42,681 nt of DNA from Candidatus Bathyarchaeota archaeon (GTDB lineage Archaea; Thermoproteota; Bathyarchaeia; Bathyarchaeales; Bathycorpusculaceae): contig JACAEK010000037.1 in assembly GCA_013388895.1 (NCBI GenBank), positions 1-42,681 on the forward strand. The letters run 5' to 3'. The notes under the pieces were generated by a model. It did no database searches, was not told the DNA's origin, and saw only the letters and a list, made by a program, of their open reading frames with translations. The position numbers and the translations under genes are program-made. How positions within the stretch are numbered: the stretch's first letter is position 1; each line of letters begins with the position of its first letter. Shown here one piece after another: positions 16,040 through 39,680 of the stretch.

Positions 16040-18829
16040 TTGAGTTTCCCACCTGAGGAGTACCGCCTTCCATTCTTCAAAGAAGCAGGCTTCGTTAGGA
16101 AGCGTTGTCCTAAATGTGGACAATATTTTTGGACGCAAAACCATAAGCAGGAAACTTGTGGGGAAGCAAGACCTGAAGGCTGTGCTCCCTACACGTTCAT
16201 CGGTAATCCGCCCACACACAAAAAGCATACGTTGCGTGAAATGCGGGAGGCTTTTTTGTCATTTTTCGAGAAACGTGGGCATATGCGCATTAAGCCTTAT
16301 CCTGTTGTGGCGCGGTGGCGAGACGACATTTACCTTACTCATGCAAGCATAATTGATTTTCAACCGTACGTGACTGAGGGAATTGCTCCGCCGCCAGCAA
16401 ACCCCCTAGTAATTGCTCAACCATGTATACGCCTCGTAGACATAGCCAACACTGGCCCAACATTCGGAAAATACTTTACACTCTTTGAGATGGGCGGGCA
16501 TCACGCCTTCAACTATCCAGACAAGGAGGTTTACTGGAAAGACCAAACCACCAGATATCATCACGAATTCGTAACGGAAGATTTAGGCGTAAAATCCGAC
16601 GAAGTAACATATAAAGAGGAAGTTTGGTCTGGTGGCGGAAATGCTGGTCCATGCGTCGAATGTATCATTCGCGGATTAGAAGTTGCCACACTCGTTTTCA
16701 TGCAGTACAAAGTTGTCAACAACGAGCTTGTCAAATTGCCCATACGAACAGTTGACACAGGCTATGGCATAGACCGATACGCATGGCTTTCTCAAGGCGC
16801 GCCCAGCGGTTTCCATGCAATCTATGGCAGTTTGCTTGACAAAATCTTCGAAATGGCTGGAATAGGCAAGATTGACAAGGATTTGCTGGTGAAAGTGGCA
16901 AAAGTTTCGGGCATAGTAAGCTTGGATAAGACAGTAAGCAGGCTGGAAGCTCGAAAGAAAATTGCAGATTTGGTCAACGTAAAAACTGATGTGCTGGACA
17001 AATTTTTGTCGCCTATCGAAAACGTTTTTGCGGTTGCTGACCACACTAAATGTTTAAGCTTTATACTTTCCGAGGGCGTTGTCCCATCCAATATTCAAGA
17101 GGGATATTTGGCTCGACTGCTTTATCGCAGAATCTACCGACTGCTAAGAATGTTGGGCATTCCAGAGAGGCTTTATGATATTGTGGATATGCAGGTAGAC
17201 TTGTGGTCAAAAGATTATCCGCATCTGAAGAAAATGCGAAACGAAATAATGGAGATGCTCAAGGTTGAAGAAGAGAAATTCCAGGAAACAATCAAAAGAG
17301 GTGAGGGACTGGTAAAACGAATCTCCAACGAGTTGAAAGTAAAGAATGTTGAGGAAATTCCGACAGAAATTGTTTCTGAACTTTACGACTCTCATGGACT
17401 TCCGCCCGAAATAGTTGAAGAATTTGCAGAAAAAGAAAGTTTGAAAGTGGATGTTCCTGAAAACTTTTATGCTTTAATTGCTCAGAGGCACATGCAAGCC
17501 GCCAAACCAGTGGAAGAGGAAGTTAAGCCTGAGGAATGGTTGAATTCGGCTGTTTCAGATCTTCCAGCGACAGTTTTGCTATACTACAAGGACCAGTATG
17601 TGAAGGAGTTTGAAGCCAAAGTTCAAAAAGTAATAGATGACGAGTACCTTGTTCTTGATCAAACATATTTCTATCCTGAAGGGGGTGGGCAACCAGCAGA
17701 CACCGGCTACTTTACCTTTAATAAGAAAAAGCTTGAGGTTGTTGACGTACGAAAAGTTGGGAGAGTTGTCGTTCACAAAATTAAAGGTTTAGCAGCGCTT
17801 AAAAAAGGCAGCACTGTTAGATGCGGGATTGATTGGGATAAGCGTTACAGTCTCATGAAGAATCATACTGTGACGCATTTGGTTAATGGTGCTGCACGGC
17901 GTGTGTTGGGCGAGCATGTTTGGCAGTTTGGCACACAAAAAGGCACGGAAAGCTCGAGGTTGGACATTTCGCATTATCGCAGACTGACGCCAGATGAAGT
18001 GCACCAAATAGAGGTTTTGGCAAATCAGGCAATTCTGCAGAACATGCAAGTTGAGACTGCGTGGATGCCGCGAAGTGAAGCAGAAAGCCGCTACGGTTTT
18101 AGGCTTTATCAGGGCGGAGCTGTTCCAGGCAAAGAGATTCGTGTGGTGAAAACAGGCGACTGGGACGTTGAAGCATGTGCTGGTACTCACTTGAAAAGCA
18201 CGGGCGAAATTGGTTTTATCAAGATAATTCATTCTGAGAAGGTTCAAGACGGTGTGGAAAGGCTCGTCTATTCAGTTGGGATTCCAGCTTTGAAGGCTGT
18301 GCAAGAAAGAGAGCAGTTGCTCTGGAAAGTTTCAGAAATTTTGAACGCTCCATTGGATAAGCTGGATAAAACAGCTGAGAAACTTGTTAAAGAATTGAAG
18401 GAAGCAAATGCTGAGAAAAGAAAGCTTGTTAAAGAATTGGCAACGCGGGAAGGTGCGGGTTTAGGAGCAAAGGCGTTTGAGGCTGTGGAAGAGATAAATG
18501 GAATTAAGCTTTTGAAACGTGATTTTCGGGAGGAAATCGACGTGAACCGCATGGTGCAAACAGCCAACGAGATTATCAAAAGAGATGAAGCAACTGTTGC
18601 AATATTCTATGGAACGGATGGAAACAACGCAAGAATAATGGTTATGGCAGGAAAAACAGCCACAGAAAAAGGCGTAAACGCAGGCGACATCGTCAGCGAA
18701 GCCTCAGCAATCATAGGTGGCGGAGGAGGCGGAAAACCCAACTTTGCACAAGGCGGCGGAACAAAAGTCAAAAAATTGTCAGAAGCAGTCAAAAAAGCCG
18801 AAGAAATATTAAGGAAACAATTGCGTTAG
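16040..18829 (+). CDS. alaS: Alanyl-tRNA synthetase, archaeal type
   Basis: The 929-residue class II synthetase charges tRNA-Ala. The archaeal N-terminal zinc-binding extension is visible (CPKCGQYF with the TCGE segment, residues 22-45). The catalytic core follows, then the editing domain with NHTVTHLVNG (HxxxH, near residue 608) and CAGTH (CxxxH, near 713), which bind the zinc needed to clear mischarged Ser and Gly. A C-terminal coiled coil and a Gly-rich DHHA1-like tail (IIGGGGGGKPNFAQGGG) end the protein. The start is TTG 16040, with TGGAG upstream. The stop overlaps the convergent GIY-YIG gene by 4 nt. Length is normal. Confidence 0.96.
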   Translation: MSFPPEEYRLPFFKEAGFVRKRCPKCGQYFWTQNHKQETCGEARPEGCAPYTFIGNPPTHKKHTLREMREAFLSFFEKRGHMRIKPYPVVARWRDDIYLTHASIIDFQPYVTEGIAPPPANPLVIAQPCIRLVDIANTGPTFGKYFTLFEMGGHHAFNYPDKEVYWKDQTTRYHHEFVTEDLGVKSDEVTYKEEVWSGGGNAGPCVECIIRGLEVATLVFMQYKVVNNELVKLPIRTVDTGYGIDRYAWLSQGAPSGFHAIYGSLLDKIFEMAGIGKIDKDLLVKVAKVSGIVSLDKTVSRLEARKKIADLVNVKTDVLDKFLSPIENVFAVADHTKCLSFILSEGVVPSNIQEGYLARLLYRRIYRLLRMLGIPERLYDIVDMQVDLWSKDYPHLKKMRNEIMEMLKVEEEKFQETIKRGEGLVKRISNELKVKNVEEIPTEIVSELYDSHGLPPEIVEEFAEKESLKVDVPENFYALIAQRHMQAAKPVEEEVKPEEWLNSAVSDLPATVLLYYKDQYVKEFEAKVQKVIDDEYLVLDQTYFYPEGGGQPADTGYFTFNKKKLEVVDVRKVGRVVVHKIKGLAALKKGSTVRCGIDWDKRYSLMKNHTVTHLVNGAARRVLGEHVWQFGTQKGTESSRLDISHYRRLTPDEVHQIEVLANQAILQNMQVETAWMPRSEAESRYGFRLYQGGAVPGKEIRVVKTGDWDVEACAGTHLKSTGEIGFIKIIHSEKVQDGVERLVYSVGIPALKAVQEREQLLWKVSEILNAPLDKLDKTAEKLVKELKEANAEKRKLVKELATREGAGLGAKAFEAVEEINGIKLLKRDFREEIDVNRMVQTANEIIKRDEATVAIFYGTDGNNARIMVMAGKTATEKGVNAGDIVSEASAIIGGGGGGKPNFAQGGGTKVKKLSEAVKKAEEILRKQLR

Positions 18830-21691: not shown

Positions 21692-24616
21692 ATGGAATTT
21701 TTGAAAAAAATCGAAGAAAAATGGCAAAAACGCTGGGAAGACGCAAAAATCTTCGAAGCAAACCCAGACCCGAAAAAACCTAAATATTTTGTAACAGTGG
21801 CTTATCCTTACCCCAATTCTCCACAGCACATTGGACACGCAAGAACCTATAGTCTGGCTGATGTGCACGCACGTTATATGCGAATGCGCGGCTACAACGT
21901 GCTTTTCCCAATGGCTTTCCATTACACTGGCACGCCAGTCTTAGCCATGTCTAAACGTCTCGCAGATAAAGACAAAGATTTAATTGACGACTTCATTAAC
22001 GTCTACAAAATCCCCAAAGAAAGACTAAACGAATTCACAGATCCGCTTGCCATGGCTAAGTATTTTCACCAGGAAATCAAAGGCGGTATGAAAGAGATTG
22101 GCTATTCCATCGATTGGCGACGCGAATTCACAACAATAGATCCACAATACAACCGCTTCATAGAATGGCAATTCCAAAAACTCTACAAAGCAGGATACAT
22201 AACACGTGGAAGCCATCCAGTAGGCTGGTGTCCTAAAGATGGAAACCCAGTAGGGCAACATGACACTGCGGGTGATGTGGAACCAGAAATAGGCGAGTTT
22301 ACATTGATAAAATTCAGACACAACGGTTACATCTTTCCGGCGGCGACTCTGCGCCCCGAAACAGTCTTTGGTGTGACAAATATATGGCTAAACCCAGAAG
22401 CCAAATATGCAAAAGCAACAGTGAATGGTGAAGCATGGATAATTAGTCAAGAAAGCGTAGAGAAACTAAAACATCTAACCCGAAAGGTCACGGTTCTGGA
22501 AGTTTTTGAAGGAAAAACTTTCATTGGAAAATACGCTGAAAATCCAGCGACAATGGCAAAAATCCTAATTCTGCCAGCAGACTTCGTCGACACAAAAAAC
22601 GCAACAGGTGTCGTGATGTCCGTTCCAGGGCATGCGCCATACGACTATGTTGCCCTAGAAATTGTCAAAAAAGACGCCTCGCTACTGAAAGAATATGGAT
22701 TGTCTTCTGAAGCTGTAAACTCTATCAACGCATTATCCGTCATTGAGGTTGCTGGATATTCAGCAGTTCCAGCAGGCGACGTAGTGAAAAAGATGAACAT
22801 CAAAGACCAGTCAGATTCCAAGCTTGAAGACGCAACAAAAGAAGTTTATAGACATGAATTTCACAATGGCAAAATGCGACAGAACGCTGGCAAATATTTT
22901 GGGCTTTCAGTGGCTGAAGCGAAAGACAAGGTCAAGCAAGACTTAATCAGCGAAGGTAAAGCCACAACAATGTACGAACTGCTCAACAGACCAGTCAGAT
23001 GTCGCTGCGGAACAGAATGCATTGTGAAAATATTTCAAGACCAATGGTTCATTGACTACGGAAATCCAGCGTGGAAAGCGTTGGCTCACAAAAACTTGGA
23101 AAAAATGGAGATAATTCCAGAAGAAATGCGCACAGAATACAACAACATAATTGATTGGCTGCATGAAAAAGCATGTGCACGCAAATCTGGCATGGGCACG
23201 CGACTTCCTTGGGACAAAGACTGGATTATCGAATCGCTGTCTGACTCAACAATTTACATGGCGTACTACACAATAGCCAAACACATCAAAGAACACAAAA
23301 TTCCGCCCGAACAGCTAACAGACGAAACGCTTGACTACGTATTCCTTGGAATTGGAAGCTCTGAAGAAATTGCAGAAAAAACCGGTTTAGATGCAGAAAC
23401 CCTAGAAAAGATGCGAGGCGAATTTCTGCATTTTTATCCATTGGACAGTCGCCACTCTGCACACGAGCTGATTCCTAACCATCTGACATTTATGATATTC
23501 AACCACACTGCCATATTCCCAGAAAGTCTGTGGCCACGTCAAATCGCGACCAACGGTCACGTCTTAATGGAAGGTGCAAAGATGAGCAAATCTTTTGGAA
23601 ACATCATTCCATTGCGAGAGGGCCTGGCAAAATACGGCGCGGACCCAGTAAGGCTGAGTGTTTTGGCAACGGCTGAACTGTTGCAAGATGCGGATTTCAG
23701 TCCTTCAGTAGCAAAATCTATGCGTGACAGAGTGGAACGCCTTTACAAGTTTGCTATGGAAATTTTGAAAATGCGTTATCCAGAAAAGGTGTCTGAAAAA
23801 TCTATGACAGCAATAGACAGGTGGATGCTTAGTCGACTGCAAGAGCACATAAGAAACGCAACTCGGTCTATGGATAGGTTGGCTGTGCGAAAGGCTATAC
23901 ACACCGTTCTGTACGAGTTAGAACAAGATTTTCAATGGTACCAGAAACGAATTGCAAACCAGAAAGCCAACGCAGCTAAAGAAGGCATTACAGCATACGT
24001 GTTCAACCAAATATTAGATGTTCAGTTGCGCATGTTGGCTCCATTTACTCCACATATCTGCGAAGAAATATGGACGCTAATAGGCAGAGAAGGCTTCATT
24101 TCCCTAAACGCTTGGCCCACACATGACGAATCAAAAACGGACATTGAAGCTGAAGAAAGCGAATCCTTGATTATGGACATGGTGGAAGATACACAAAACA
24201 TTATTAGGGCAACAAGCATCGCTCCGAGAAAGATATGTTACTATGTGGCTGCATCTTGGAAAACAAAAGCTTACCTAAAAATTCTGGAGAAGGCGAAAAG
24301 CGGAGAAGTGAAACTGAACGAAATCATGAAGGAATTTGCGGCTGAAGGGGATTTAAAGAAGAGAATGAAGGAAGTTGCCACTTTCGCTTCGAAAATGGTG
24401 AAAGATGTCAGCAAGATGCCGGAAAAACGTAGGGAAAACATGTTGATGATAAAAGCGTTAGATGAAAAAGAAGTGGTCGAAGATGCAAAGAGCTTTTTGA
24501 TGCAGAGATTCAACGCTCAGATAACAGTGTACAATGAAGAGGATGAGGAGCGTTATGATCCGAAAAATAAGGCTGCGGTGTCTGTGCCTTATCGTCCAGC
24601 AATCTACATTGAATAG
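21692..24616 (+). CDS. leuS: Leucyl-tRNA synthetase, archaeal type
   Basis: The 974-residue class I synthetase charges tRNA-Leu. The HIGH motif is at residues 46-49 (PQHIGHARTY), and KMSKS is intact near residue 630 (EGAKMSKSFGN). Between them lies the CP1 editing domain, with TLRPETVFGVTN near residues 220-232. A C-terminal anticodon-binding domain and the archaeal/eukaryotic tail follow. Length and layout are typical of the archaeal form. The ATG at 21692 has no ribosome binding site and probably begins a leaderless transcript. The gene is isolated, with a pseudogene upstream and a convergent unknown gene downstream. Confidence 0.97.
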   Translation: MEFLKKIEEKWQKRWEDAKIFEANPDPKKPKYFVTVAYPYPNSPQHIGHARTYSLADVHARYMRMRGYNVLFPMAFHYTGTPVLAMSKRLADKDKDLIDDFINVYKIPKERLNEFTDPLAMAKYFHQEIKGGMKEIGYSIDWRREFTTIDPQYNRFIEWQFQKLYKAGYITRGSHPVGWCPKDGNPVGQHDTAGDVEPEIGEFTLIKFRHNGYIFPAATLRPETVFGVTNIWLNPEAKYAKATVNGEAWIISQESVEKLKHLTRKVTVLEVFEGKTFIGKYAENPATMAKILILPADFVDTKNATGVVMSVPGHAPYDYVALEIVKKDASLLKEYGLSSEAVNSINALSVIEVAGYSAVPAGDVVKKMNIKDQSDSKLEDATKEVYRHEFHNGKMRQNAGKYFGLSVAEAKDKVKQDLISEGKATTMYELLNRPVRCRCGTECIVKIFQDQWFIDYGNPAWKALAHKNLEKMEIIPEEMRTEYNNIIDWLHEKACARKSGMGTRLPWDKDWIIESLSDSTIYMAYYTIAKHIKEHKIPPEQLTDETLDYVFLGIGSSEEIAEKTGLDAETLEKMRGEFLHFYPLDSRHSAHELIPNHLTFMIFNHTAIFPESLWPRQIATNGHVLMEGAKMSKSFGNIIPLREGLAKYGADPVRLSVLATAELLQDADFSPSVAKSMRDRVERLYKFAMEILKMRYPEKVSEKSMTAIDRWMLSRLQEHIRNATRSMDRLAVRKAIHTVLYELEQDFQWYQKRIANQKANAAKEGITAYVFNQILDVQLRMLAPFTPHICEEIWTLIGREGFISLNAWPTHDESKTDIEAEESESLIMDMVEDTQNIIRATSIAPRKICYYVAASWKTKAYLKILEKAKSGEVKLNEIMKEFAAEGDLKKRMKEVATFASKMVKDVSKMPEKRRENMLMIKALDEKEVVEDAKSFLMQRFNAQITVYNEEDEERYDPKNKAAVSVPYRPAIYIE

Positions 24617-25010: not shown

Positions 25011-25185
25011 GCACTCCCCCCAATAATGTATAGGATGCATGGTGTTTAAAAACTTTAAGTATCATTGTTCTACAATTTATGGATGTTATTACAAGTTTCT
25101 GAGCAAGATTGAACGTGGACAGATAAAACTATATTCACCATTTTTATATCAAATCTTAAAAAAGGGTCCGTGGCGCAGCATGGAT

Positions 25186-25201
25186 ACGCAAAAGACCATA
25201 A
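25186..25201 (+). other. D-loop intron (16 nt) of tRNA-Arg(UCU)
   Basis: ATGG just before the 5' site pairs with CCAT inside the intron as a 4-bp helix. It is followed on each strand by a 3-nt bulge (ATA and AAA). Cutting after the second base of each bulge gives exactly the intron that restores the D-arm. The outer helix has only two pairs and the inner side is an open loop, so this is a relaxed bulge-helix-bulge (BHB) site. Confidence 0.85.
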
Positions 25202-25218
25202 AGCGCGTCAGCCTTCTA

Positions 25219-25237
25219 AGACCTTTGCGTTGAAGAA
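25219..25237 (+). other. Anticodon-loop intron (19 nt, position 37/38) of tRNA-Arg(UCU)
   Basis: This is a strict BHB site. The anticodon stem forms the outer helix, CTTC/GAAG the central 4-bp helix, TAA and AAA the two 3-nt bulges, and GAC/GTT the inner helix closing a CTTTGC loop. Cleavage after the second base of each bulge leaves the loop CTTCTAA. Confidence 0.93.
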
Positions 25238-25289
25238 AGCTGAAAGTCCTGGGTTCAAATCCCAGCGGACCCGCCAAAAGCAAACATGG

Positions 25290-28987: not shown

Positions 28988-30022
28988 ATGAAGACGCGGA
29001 CGATAGAATGGCAAAATGGCACAGTTGTAACAATAGACCAAGCTAAGCTTCCACATGAAAAAGTAGTTCTTGGGTTGAAGAACTGTGAGGAAGTGGCTGA
29101 AGCCATAAAAACCATGAAGATAAGAGGTGCACCCCTTTTAGGAGCAGCGGCAGCCTACGCTTTGGCTTTAACAGCTTACCATTCAAAAGCGAAAAGTCGA
29201 GAAGAATTAATCAGTGAATTAGAAAAAGCGGCTGAAACTGTAAGAGGCACGCGTCCTACGGCTGTAAATCTTTTTTGGGCAATAGATAGAATCTTGGTAA
29301 AAGCCAAAAACTATTCAGGAGACGCTAAGGCTTTGTCTGCCTTTGTTCTCGAGGAAGCCCAGAAAATAGCTGACGAAGACGCTACAGCAAACCGTTCGAT
29401 AGGCAAATATGGCGCTGCCCTTATCAGTGATGGGGACGTTGTTTTGACGCACTGCAACGCTGGAGCTTTAGCTACTGTTGAATATGGCACTGCCTTAGGT
29501 GTGGTAAGAGCCTCTTGGGAACAGGGAAAAAAGATCAGGGTGATTGCCACCGAGACACGTCCAAAATTGCAGGGCGCGAGGTTAACGACTTATGAACTTA
29601 AAAAGGACGGCATACCAGTCACCTTGATTGCTGACAGCGCAGTAGGCTATTTGATGCATAAGCGTCTGATTGACAAAGTTGTTGTCGGAGCTGACAGAAT
29701 AGTTCGCGATGCAGTTATAAACAAAATTGGCACGTTTGCAATAGCAGTTTTAGCAAAGGAACATGGCATACCATTCTATGTTGCTGCTCCCAAATCCACA
29801 TTTGATTTGAAGCGCACATCTGCAAATACAGTTGTTGAAGAGAGAAAATCCGAAGAAATAACACATATCGGTTCGCATCGAATTGCTCCAGAAGACGTAG
29901 ACATCATTAATCCAGCCTTTGACATGACTCCGCTGAAATATGTGTCAGCCATAATTTGCGAAAGTGGGATTTTATATAAGGCGGATTTCAATAAGTTAAA
30001 AGCCAGTTTGGGATTCAAATGA
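28988..30022 (+). CDS. MtnA-like aldose-1-phosphate isomerase
   Basis: The 344-residue protein is close to S-methyl-5-thioribose-1-phosphate isomerase of the eIF2B-like fold. Key segments are KIRGAPLLG, RGTRPTAVNLFWAIDR, THCNAGALAT (catalytic Cys), ETRPKLQGARLTTYEL and VVGADRIVRDAVINKIGT (catalytic Asp). It would isomerise methylthioribose-1-phosphate or the 5'-deoxyribose analogue in methionine/adenosyl salvage. The ribose-1,5-bisphosphate isomerase of the archaeal AMP pathway is a related alternative, but these motifs are MtnA-like. The stop overlaps the endA start by 4 nt, so they are coupled. Confidence 0.9.
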   Translation: MKTRTIEWQNGTVVTIDQAKLPHEKVVLGLKNCEEVAEAIKTMKIRGAPLLGAAAAYALALTAYHSKAKSREELISELEKAAETVRGTRPTAVNLFWAIDRILVKAKNYSGDAKALSAFVLEEAQKIADEDATANRSIGKYGAALISDGDVVLTHCNAGALATVEYGTALGVVRASWEQGKKIRVIATETRPKLQGARLTTYELKKDGIPVTLIADSAVGYLMHKRLIDKVVVGADRIVRDAVINKIGTFAIAVLAKEHGIPFYVAAPKSTFDLKRTSANTVVEERKSEEITHIGSHRIAPEDVDIINPAFDMTPLKYVSAIICESGILYKADFNKLKASLGFK

Positions 30023-30576
30023 GCAAAAAGGAGAAGAAAGAGCCCACCATAAGCAGAACTGTAGTGAAAGGTGTACTAACCGAGGAAGGAGTTCAAATTT
30101 CCAAAAAGCAAAATGTGGAAGAAATCACTTCCAGAGGATATGGTGTAACCGAAAAGAACAAGTTTTTGCTCAAGTTTTATGAAGCATTATACCTTCTCGA
30201 TAAGGGTCTGGTGGAAGTCAACGACAGAAAAGGCGAAAAAGTAAATTTTCAAAGTCTTCTGCAACTCTACGAAAGTGTTGACGAAAATGCTTGGGCGAAG
30301 TATTTGGCATATCGGGATTTGCGCAGCCGAGGATACGTGGTTCGAGAAGGTTTCGGTTCAGGTGTTGACTTCCGAGTGTACGAAAGAGGTGATTACAGTA
30401 GGGATACTGCCAAATATCTGGTTTTGAGTGTCCAAGAAGGCAGGCCTATTCTGCTTGAAGATTTAACTCGCGTTATGACACAATCGCAGAGTCTTAAGAA
30501 GGAACTGATTTTGACTGTTATGAATCGCCGCGGAGAAATAGTTTACTATTCAGTTTCGCAATTAGCTATAAAATAA
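30019..30576 (+). CDS. endA: tRNA-splicing endonuclease EndA family, catalytic His missing
   Basis: The 185-residue protein is a two-domain EndA of normal length. The C-terminal catalytic domain has FRVYERG with the catalytic Tyr121 and the Lys region LKKELIL (160/161). At the usual HxKYLV motif, however, it reads T130-A-K-Y-L-V: the catalytic His is Thr. EndA cuts bulge-helix-bulge introns in tRNA by a Tyr/His/Lys RNase A-like mechanism. The change suggests a structural subunit of a heteromeric enzyme, or altered chemistry; a catalytic partner must then lie outside the window. The start overlaps the mtnA-like stop (ATGA), and hisS follows 15 nt later. Confidence 0.88.
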   Translation: MSKKEKKEPTISRTVVKGVLTEEGVQISKKQNVEEITSRGYGVTEKNKFLLKFYEALYLLDKGLVEVNDRKGEKVNFQSLLQLYESVDENAWAKYLAYRDLRSRGYVVREGFGSGVDFRVYERGDYSRDTAKYLVLSVQEGRPILLEDLTRVMTQSQSLKKELILTVMNRRGEIVYYSVSQLAIK

Positions 30577-37463: not shown

Positions 37464-39680
37464 ATGGTTCGCTATAGACAAGTCGACGAAATTCAAAAAC
37501 TAATGAATTACCCAGAGATGATACGGAACACAAGCATCATAGCCCACGTAGACCATGGCAAAACCACCCTTTCAGACAGCCTACTCGCCGCGGCGGGCAT
37601 AATAAGCGAACAAAGAGCTGGGCAACAGCTTGTCTTAGACTCTTGGGAGCTTGAACAGAAAAGGCAGATGACAGTCTTCGCCTCAAACATCAGCCTAGCG
37701 CACACTTTCAAAGAAAAAGAATACTTGATTAACCTCATCGACACGCCGGGTCACATTGATTTCAGCGGAGCTGTAACACGTAGCTTACGTGCAGTAGATG
37801 GTGCCCTCGTAGTAGTCGACGCCGTAGAAGGTCCAATGACTCAGACAGAAACAGTTCTTATGCAGGCACTTCGTGAAAGAGTTAAGCCTATTCTCTTCAT
37901 AAACAAGGTTGACCGCCTCATTAAAGAGATAAAGTTGACACCGGACGAGATTCAGCGCAAATTTGCAAAAATCATTCTCAGAATAAACAATCTTATTGAA
38001 AAGTATGCACCAGCTGAACATAAGAAAGACTGGCAAGTTGCAGTTGAAGACGGACGTGTAGCGTTTGGTTCAGCCTTGCACAAGTGGGGTTTAAATCTGC
38101 CTCACATGAAAGCGAAGGGAATAACATTCAAAGACATCATCGACGCTTACACAGGCGAATCAGACGATGTTGGAAGAAAAGTTGACGCCTTAAGCAAGAA
38201 AGCCCCATTATACGAGCCGATTTTGGACATGTTCTGTGAACACTTACCCAACCCGTTAGTTGCTCAGCCTTACAGAGAACCTCAAATCTGGCCTGGAGAT
38301 GTAGAAAGCCCAGTAGGACAATCGATGGCTAAAGTTGACCCAAATGGACCGCTTTTGATGTGCATTTCAACGATTGAGGTTGATCCACACAGCGGTCTAG
38401 TTGCAATCGGGCGCATTTTCAGTGGTACAGTTGAGAAAGGAAAAGTTGTCCAACTCATAAACAGCCACCAAAAAGGCACAATTCAGCAGGTTTACATGAG
38501 TATGGCTGCTGATCGTGTTATAATCGACAAGATTCCAGCTGGAAACATTGCTGCGCTTTCAGGACTTCCCTCAATTCATGTAGGTGAGACAGTTGCCGAA
38601 GAGGACGCTGAAACGCAGTCATTTGAGGGTTTGAAGTATGTTTCAGACCCAGTTGTGACGGTAGCTGTTGAGCCTCAAGACGTTAAGGATTTACCGCTTT
38701 TCGACAAAGTCATGCATAAGCTGACAACGGAAGACCCGAACTTGCATTTTGTGATAAACAAGGAGAGCGGCGAATACTTGCTGAGCGGCATGGGTGAACT
38801 GCACTTGGAAGTCACCGCCTACCGAATGCAAGAGGCAGGTTTGAAAGTAAATATTAGCAAGCCTATTGTGATTTATCGAGAAACCATCAGCCACGACTAT
38901 AAAGGACCAGCAATAATGGGCAAAAGCCCTAACAAACATAACAAGCTGTGGGTGACAATGGAAAAACTGCCCGAAGAAATCATGGAAGCAATAAGGTCTG
39001 GAAAAATAAGTGAAATGCAAACACGCGACGAGCGCCAAAAAACTTTGAAACAGTTCGGCTGGCCAACCGACGATGCACGCAATGTCATTGCCATAGAAGG
39101 CGTGAACATACTTGTCAACAGAATTAAGGGAAGACAGTACGTGGAAGAGATAATGGACCACATTAAGTCTGGCTTCCGCGAAGCAGTTTACACTTCAGTC
39201 TTGGCAAAAGAGCCTGCTTTTGGGTTGAAAGTGAATTTGGAAGATGTGTCGGTTCATGAAGACCCCGTGCATAGAGGACCAGCACAGATTTTGCCGATGA
39301 CTTGGCGTCCTATCTGGTGCGCTTTCTTGCTGAGTGACCCGAAGCTTCTGGAGCCTATCATAAGTTTTGAATGCAAAGTTCCGAATGACTTCGTTAGCAA
39401 CGTTATCGCCATAGTGCAGAAGCGTCGCGGAAAAATCTTGGATATGGTGAACGAAGAGGACATGGTGATTGTTAAAGCAGAAATGCCTGTCGCTGAGTCT
39501 TTCGGGCTTGCAGAAGAATTACGCTCGTCAACGCAGGGTAGAGCTTTTTGGGCGACACAGTTCAGCCGATGGGCGCCTGTTCCAGAATCAATGCAGGTAG
39601 ATGTGATTAAACAGATTCGGGAACGCAGAGGCTTAAGTGCGACGTCGCCGAGAGCAGAAGAATTCTACGAAGCAGCATGA
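37464..39680 (+). CDS. fusA: Translation elongation factor 2 (aEF-2)
   Basis: The 738-residue GTPase drives ribosomal translocation. G motifs are intact: AHVDHGKTT at residues 27-35, DTPGHIDF, and NKVDRL. The diphthamide loop near the C-terminus reads HEDPVHRGPAQILP, with the modified His at residue 603. After this loop the sequence MTWRPIWCAFLL differs from the commoner Ala/Arg-rich text, but the His itself is conserved. AAGGATAAAG supports the ATG. Length is normal for archaea. Confidence 0.97.
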   Translation: MVRYRQVDEIQKLMNYPEMIRNTSIIAHVDHGKTTLSDSLLAAAGIISEQRAGQQLVLDSWELEQKRQMTVFASNISLAHTFKEKEYLINLIDTPGHIDFSGAVTRSLRAVDGALVVVDAVEGPMTQTETVLMQALRERVKPILFINKVDRLIKEIKLTPDEIQRKFAKIILRINNLIEKYAPAEHKKDWQVAVEDGRVAFGSALHKWGLNLPHMKAKGITFKDIIDAYTGESDDVGRKVDALSKKAPLYEPILDMFCEHLPNPLVAQPYREPQIWPGDVESPVGQSMAKVDPNGPLLMCISTIEVDPHSGLVAIGRIFSGTVEKGKVVQLINSHQKGTIQQVYMSMAADRVIIDKIPAGNIAALSGLPSIHVGETVAEEDAETQSFEGLKYVSDPVVTVAVEPQDVKDLPLFDKVMHKLTTEDPNLHFVINKESGEYLLSGMGELHLEVTAYRMQEAGLKVNISKPIVIYRETISHDYKGPAIMGKSPNKHNKLWVTMEKLPEEIMEAIRSGKISEMQTRDERQKTLKQFGWPTDDARNVIAIEGVNILVNRIKGRQYVEEIMDHIKSGFREAVYTSVLAKEPAFGLKVNLEDVSVHEDPVHRGPAQILPMTWRPIWCAFLLSDPKLLEPIISFECKVPNDFVSNVIAIVQKRRGKILDMVNEEDMVIVKAEMPVAESFGLAEELRSSTQGRAFWATQFSRWAPVPESMQVDVIKQIRERRGLSATSPRAEEFYEAA

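Follow-up and report, generated by a model that had tools for sequence, protein, structure and literature searches.

A D-loop intron beside the canonical 37/38 intron in a bathyarchaeal tRNA-Arg(UCU) gene and its occurrence in related archaea

The window analysed here, a whole stretch of 42,681 nucleotides that forms contig C17 of a 1.58 Mb Candidatus Bathyarchaeota archaeal MAG, carries on its forward strand a tRNA-Arg(UCU) gene with encoded CCA (25164–25276) that is interrupted both at the canonical 37/38 position and within the D-loop. We consider it very likely that this is a functional single-copy gene from which both introns are cut by an (alpha-beta)2-type tRNA-splicing endonuclease (EndA) with subsequent exon ligation, and that the D-loop intron is inherited in the family. 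Lineage lookup placed the host, a bathyarchaeote, inside Thermoproteati/Thermoproteota, and the nearest named relatives of the EndA beta protein encoded in the window were Candidatus Bathyarchaeota MAGs (76–67% identity). As bathyarchaeotes belong to Thermoproteota, the expectation of an earlier note on this DNA that D-loop introns are mainly found in this phylum was borne out.

Gene structure and the mature tRNA

In Rfam the locus matched the tRNA family (RF00005, 49.3 bits), with the D-loop and the anticodon loop each holding a long insertion. The D-loop intron (25186–25201, forward strand; ACGCAAAAGACCATAA) is 16 nt long and lies at tRNA position 20a/21, and the 37/38 intron (25219–25237, forward strand; AGACCTTTGCGTTGAAGAA) is a 19-nt canonical intron with a strict bulge-helix-bulge (BHB) motif. 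Without these two segments the gene forms a complete cloverleaf with perfect stems and the encoded CCA, its 5' part reading GGGTCCG TG GCGC AGCATGGATA GCGC G TCAGC CTTCTAA GCTGA and continuing as AAGTC CTGGG TTCAAAT CCCAG CGGACCC G CCA. ARAGORN called tRNA-Arg(tct) only once the 16-nt D-loop insert was taken out, as in the sequence lacking both inserts; with both present it gave no call, or a wrong Leu(aag) if introns were allowed, and the gene was missed when the program was run on the window. Tools that do not handle noncanonical introns will miss or misname this gene in the same way. The coordinates of the gene and of the D-loop intron proposed in the earlier note, and its claim that two removals restore a cloverleaf ending in CCA, were confirmed by this analysis, the cloverleaf being obtained only with 25186–25201 removed.

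The LeuRS gene (21692–24616, forward strand, from inspection of the ORF) adjoins the tRNA gene, and the AlaRS gene (16040–18829) serves as a marker of the syntenic locus. The genome yielded 45 tRNA matches, in which no second UCU tRNA gene was seen, leaving 25164–25276 as the sole one found.

Splice motifs and the splicing endonuclease

The anticodon-loop intron proved to be a strict BHB, as previously described from the sequence, with an outer helix of 5 bp, a 4-bp central helix (CTTC/GAAG), an inner helix of 3 bp (GAC/GTT) and the bulges TA^A and AA^A. In the D-loop, the exon strand ATGG (25180–25183, forward strand; tRNA positions 17, 17a, 18 and 19), which shows compensatory changes in relatives, forms a 4-bp central helix with the intron strand CCAT (25196–25199, forward strand), whose pairing likewise recurs in relatives. 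The accompanying 3-nt bulges are AUA on the 5' side (25184–25186, forward strand) and AAA on the 3' side (25200–25202, forward strand; supported by the fold and by relatives), each with its predicted cut after the second base (AU^A and AA^A). When the intron was shuffled, a fully Watson-Crick 4-bp match at this register arose with a probability of about 0.0025. The sequence of this gene alone allows an excision of either 25186–25201 or 25187–25202 (an A stands on each side). Only the former is consistent with the bulges of two relatives, ATG in G022 and ATT in G061; since these 5' bulges end in G or T, the register was set with the 5' boundary at 25186. The earlier claim that a cut after the second bulge base defines the exact intron therefore holds for the boundaries through these two relatives, but not from the gene's own letters.

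Application of the strict hBHBh' definition to the D-loop intron gave a negative result, as there was no real inner helix and the strict outer helix (GC/GC) comprised just 2 bp. This strict outer register accounted for approximately 7% of the ensemble, and in the favoured fold the D-stem was retained, a 3x3 internal loop taking the place of the 3' bulge expected in a strict motif. Lacking an inner helix and having a strict outer helix of only 2 bp, the D-loop intron was assigned to the relaxed motifs of the hBH/BHL kind, which is a recognised subtype of archaeal BHB-type tRNA intron. The BHB-type features present at the site are the restoration of a normal tRNA, the 4-bp helix, the two 3-nt bulges and cut sites after the second base.

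Two EndA genes were found in the genome, one on contig C56 (alpha) and one on C17 (beta). The latter, 4.7 kb from the tRNA-Arg(UCU) gene, encodes a beta-like (structural) subunit of 185 aa (30019–30576, forward strand; Pfam PF01974, 78.8 bits; TIGR00324 over cut-off; alignment to 1a79) and was read as structural because Thr stands at the position of the catalytic His (DTAKYLVL versus EHSVYLVK in the alignment to 1a79). The alpha protein still has Tyr, His and Lys residues in its catalytic region; in an ungapped alignment, its Lys39 lies opposite A. pernix K44 of the Crenarchaea-specific loop. This loop lysine confers broad EndA specificity, and efficient removal of relaxed hBH/BHL motifs is limited to (alpha-beta)2 and epsilon2 EndAs (reviewed in PMC6379350). 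From their sequences, the alpha and beta genes look like those of a relaxed-specificity (alpha-beta)2 EndA with the corresponding predicted activity. The presence of a relaxed motif together with an alpha subunit bearing Lys39 and a beta subunit is in agreement with the earlier proposal that this intron needs an endonuclease of relaxed specificity.

According to the proposed mechanism, the tRNA-Arg(UCU) gene would be transcribed with both introns, and an (alpha-beta)2-type EndA would cut the strict 37/38 BHB as well as the relaxed 20a/21 motif, the latter made up of the 4-bp helix between exon bases 17–19 and the 3' end of the intron and of the two 3-nt bulges. The exons would then be ligated to give a normal tRNA, with cleavage, ligation and splicing order predicted here from gene and motif structure.

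The D-loop intron in relatives and its history

When the order and the class were searched by pattern, which covered only part of the genomes, same-site tRNA-Arg(UCU) insertions were recovered in 25 genomes of the class, and a covariance-model search run on the genomes that the pattern had missed added ten more with a GGAC D-loop variant and insertions of 15–28 nt. In these 35 genomes the insertions were 13–28 nt long, with unrelated interiors and intact flanking exons; the 28 gene copies from the pattern searches had same-site insertions of 12–22 nt. Two genomes of the same phylum but outside the class, G322 (12 nt) and G466, also carried a same-site insertion. The comparison of tRNA-Arg(UCU) genes suggested in the earlier note thus showed an intron common to approximately 21 genera of the same family as well as to other families, and cleanly absent elsewhere, as g2, g11, g13, g18, g21, g25 and g33 of this family had an exact, uninterrupted D-loop. 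The D-loop and 37/38 introns occurred in relatives together, singly or not at all.

The covariation of the central helix matched the register that had been read from the single sequence, ATGG/CCAT with 3-nt bulges cut after the second base. At the predicted register 105 of 112 cells were paired across the 28 copies, compared with 28–54% in slid registers, and with one copy per genus 20 of 26 helices were fully paired versus 11.6 when shuffled (P 5e-5, uncorrected for shared ancestry). The helix occurred as ATGG/CCAT, TTGG/CCAA and CTGG/CCAG, and its outer pair varied in a compensatory manner between A-U, U-A, C-G and U-G. One mismatch was present in G012, G031, G034, G035, G006, G023 and the genomes of families f2 and f14, the latter two having a different helix (CTGG/ACGG or ACAG). 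Genome G031 possessed two tRNA-Arg(UCU) copies (L088; G031:C51:782-828), both with D-loop introns of differing interiors, in a MAG with 8% estimated contamination.

These comparisons bear on two further readings of the gene, both of which were rejected on comparative grounds. Rfam tolerates the 16-nt insert, which might then remain in the D-loop of an unusual yet functional tRNA, but this is very improbable given that the insertion varies from 12 to 28 nt with unrelated interiors around an exonic D-loop preserved exactly as in intronless relatives, that the helix covaries in the splice register, and that an EndA of suitable type is encoded in the genome. That the gene is decaying into a pseudogene or results from misassembly, as might be suspected because the genome is a MAG and because G031 has two copies, is more improbable still: the gene is the sole UCU tRNA gene found in this genome, has perfect stems and CCA, and its two-intron architecture recurs in dozens of independent assemblies, including the MAGs L.E.AR.18 (L078) and Kmv01 (L079).

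The history of the D-loop intron was analysed on a 28-genome AlaRS tree that was midpoint rooted and had several open forks, and intron presence and absence took 3 state changes compared with 9.0 when shuffled. EF2 (37464–39680) was dropped as a tree marker in favour of AlaRS because the EF2 copies of relatives fell into two groups, approximately 75–94% and approximately 50% identical; several intron-bearing genomes had only the distant (~50%) form. In many of these genomes tRNA-Arg(UCU) and AlaRS share a contig and are a few kb apart at most, and the locus is therefore very probably orthologous. Three changes suggest an old intron with few precise losses, and the simplest reading places these losses in the g2/g13/g33/g18/g11 clade, in G021 and in the G063/G096 pair. 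Alternatively, D-loop introns may have been gained repeatedly at a hot-spot site, an explanation that we consider less probable but to which we give appreciable weight, as the f2 and f14 helices differ, the site also holds an insertion in two genomes from outside the class, and genus g27 carries a different and longer one. The strong clustering of presence within the family on the AlaRS tree and the shared position near AlaRS argue against it, and owing to the midpoint root and open forks of this tree repeated gain may apply outside the family. Within the bathyarchaeal family, we favour inheritance of a D-loop intron whose interior would change rapidly around a conserved helix, with precise loss in some sublineages.

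Members of genus g27 (L188, L189 and L190, from G027, G057 and G043) had a longer D-loop insertion of approximately 44–49 nt in tRNA-Arg(UCU); this insertion folds into a hairpin and has the direct repeat ACGGAT on either side. No 4-bp central helix was found in the G027 insertion in any register compatible with the mature D-loop, the best being a 2-bp CG/CG, and a pattern search limited to GTCC gave no matches, a result that is uninformative for long insertions of the ATCC type. The g27 insertion may have been acquired separately and by a different route. A more speculative interpretation, to which we assign a low likelihood, is that an ancestral bathyarchaeal D-loop intron was kept over deep time for a function, for instance in directing how the precursor is modified before splicing or in protecting the D-arm against integrases, and was replaced in g27 by the longer hairpin insertion with 6-bp repeat flanks.

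Relation to known archaeal introns

Positions 20/21, 29/30, 30/31 and 45/46 are listed among the noncanonical intron positions of archaeal tRNAs (Yoshihisa 2014, PMC4090602), so that the D-loop intron is of a known kind. It shares with the listed 20/21 introns the D-loop position, the BHB-type helix and bulges and a coexisting 37/38 intron, but differs in its Bathyarchaeia host, in the lack of an inner helix and in belonging to an orthologous series that extends over many genera and a long time. Thermoproteales multi-intron tRNA genes (Sugahara 2007/2008, cited in PMC4090602 and PMC8450103) also combine two introns per tRNA, one of them noncanonical, with removal by an (alpha-beta)2 EndA, which is predicted here from the genes; in contrast to the Thermoproteales, only four noncanonical introns were identified here in about 40 tRNA genes, with no mass proliferation by transposition. 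Caldiarchaeum subterraneum is likewise a deep TACK lineage with noncanonical introns, including reported D-arm introns (PMC3293823), but its named multiple introns sit in other tRNAs, and heterogeneity between strains and splitting ascribed to a mobile element were described there. The open papers searched contained no published description of noncanonical introns in Bathyarchaeota.

Three more noncanonical introns were found in the same genome. In elongator tRNA-Met (L027, 1501–1604) the intron is 29 nt long and lies at 45/46, with a CTGG/CCAG central helix and the 3-nt bulges AG^A and AG^G. tRNA-Lys(CUU) (L035, G000:C45:54748-54851) is interrupted by a 29-nt intron at 30/31, where Nanoarchaeum and Staphylothermus have a split tRNA-Lys(CUU) gene (PMC4090602). 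tRNA-Arg(CCG) (L042, G000:C28:12094-12213), judged by eye, apparently carries, besides an intron at 37/38, a second one of approximately 24 nt at 29/30.

In summary, this analysis extends well-supported D-loop tRNA introns to Bathyarchaeia. The introns form an unusually clean series, at the same site of the same syntenic locus in dozens of species and with precise losses, which lends itself to tests of the gain, retention and loss of archaeal tRNA introns and of the drift of their splice motifs with EndA specificity.
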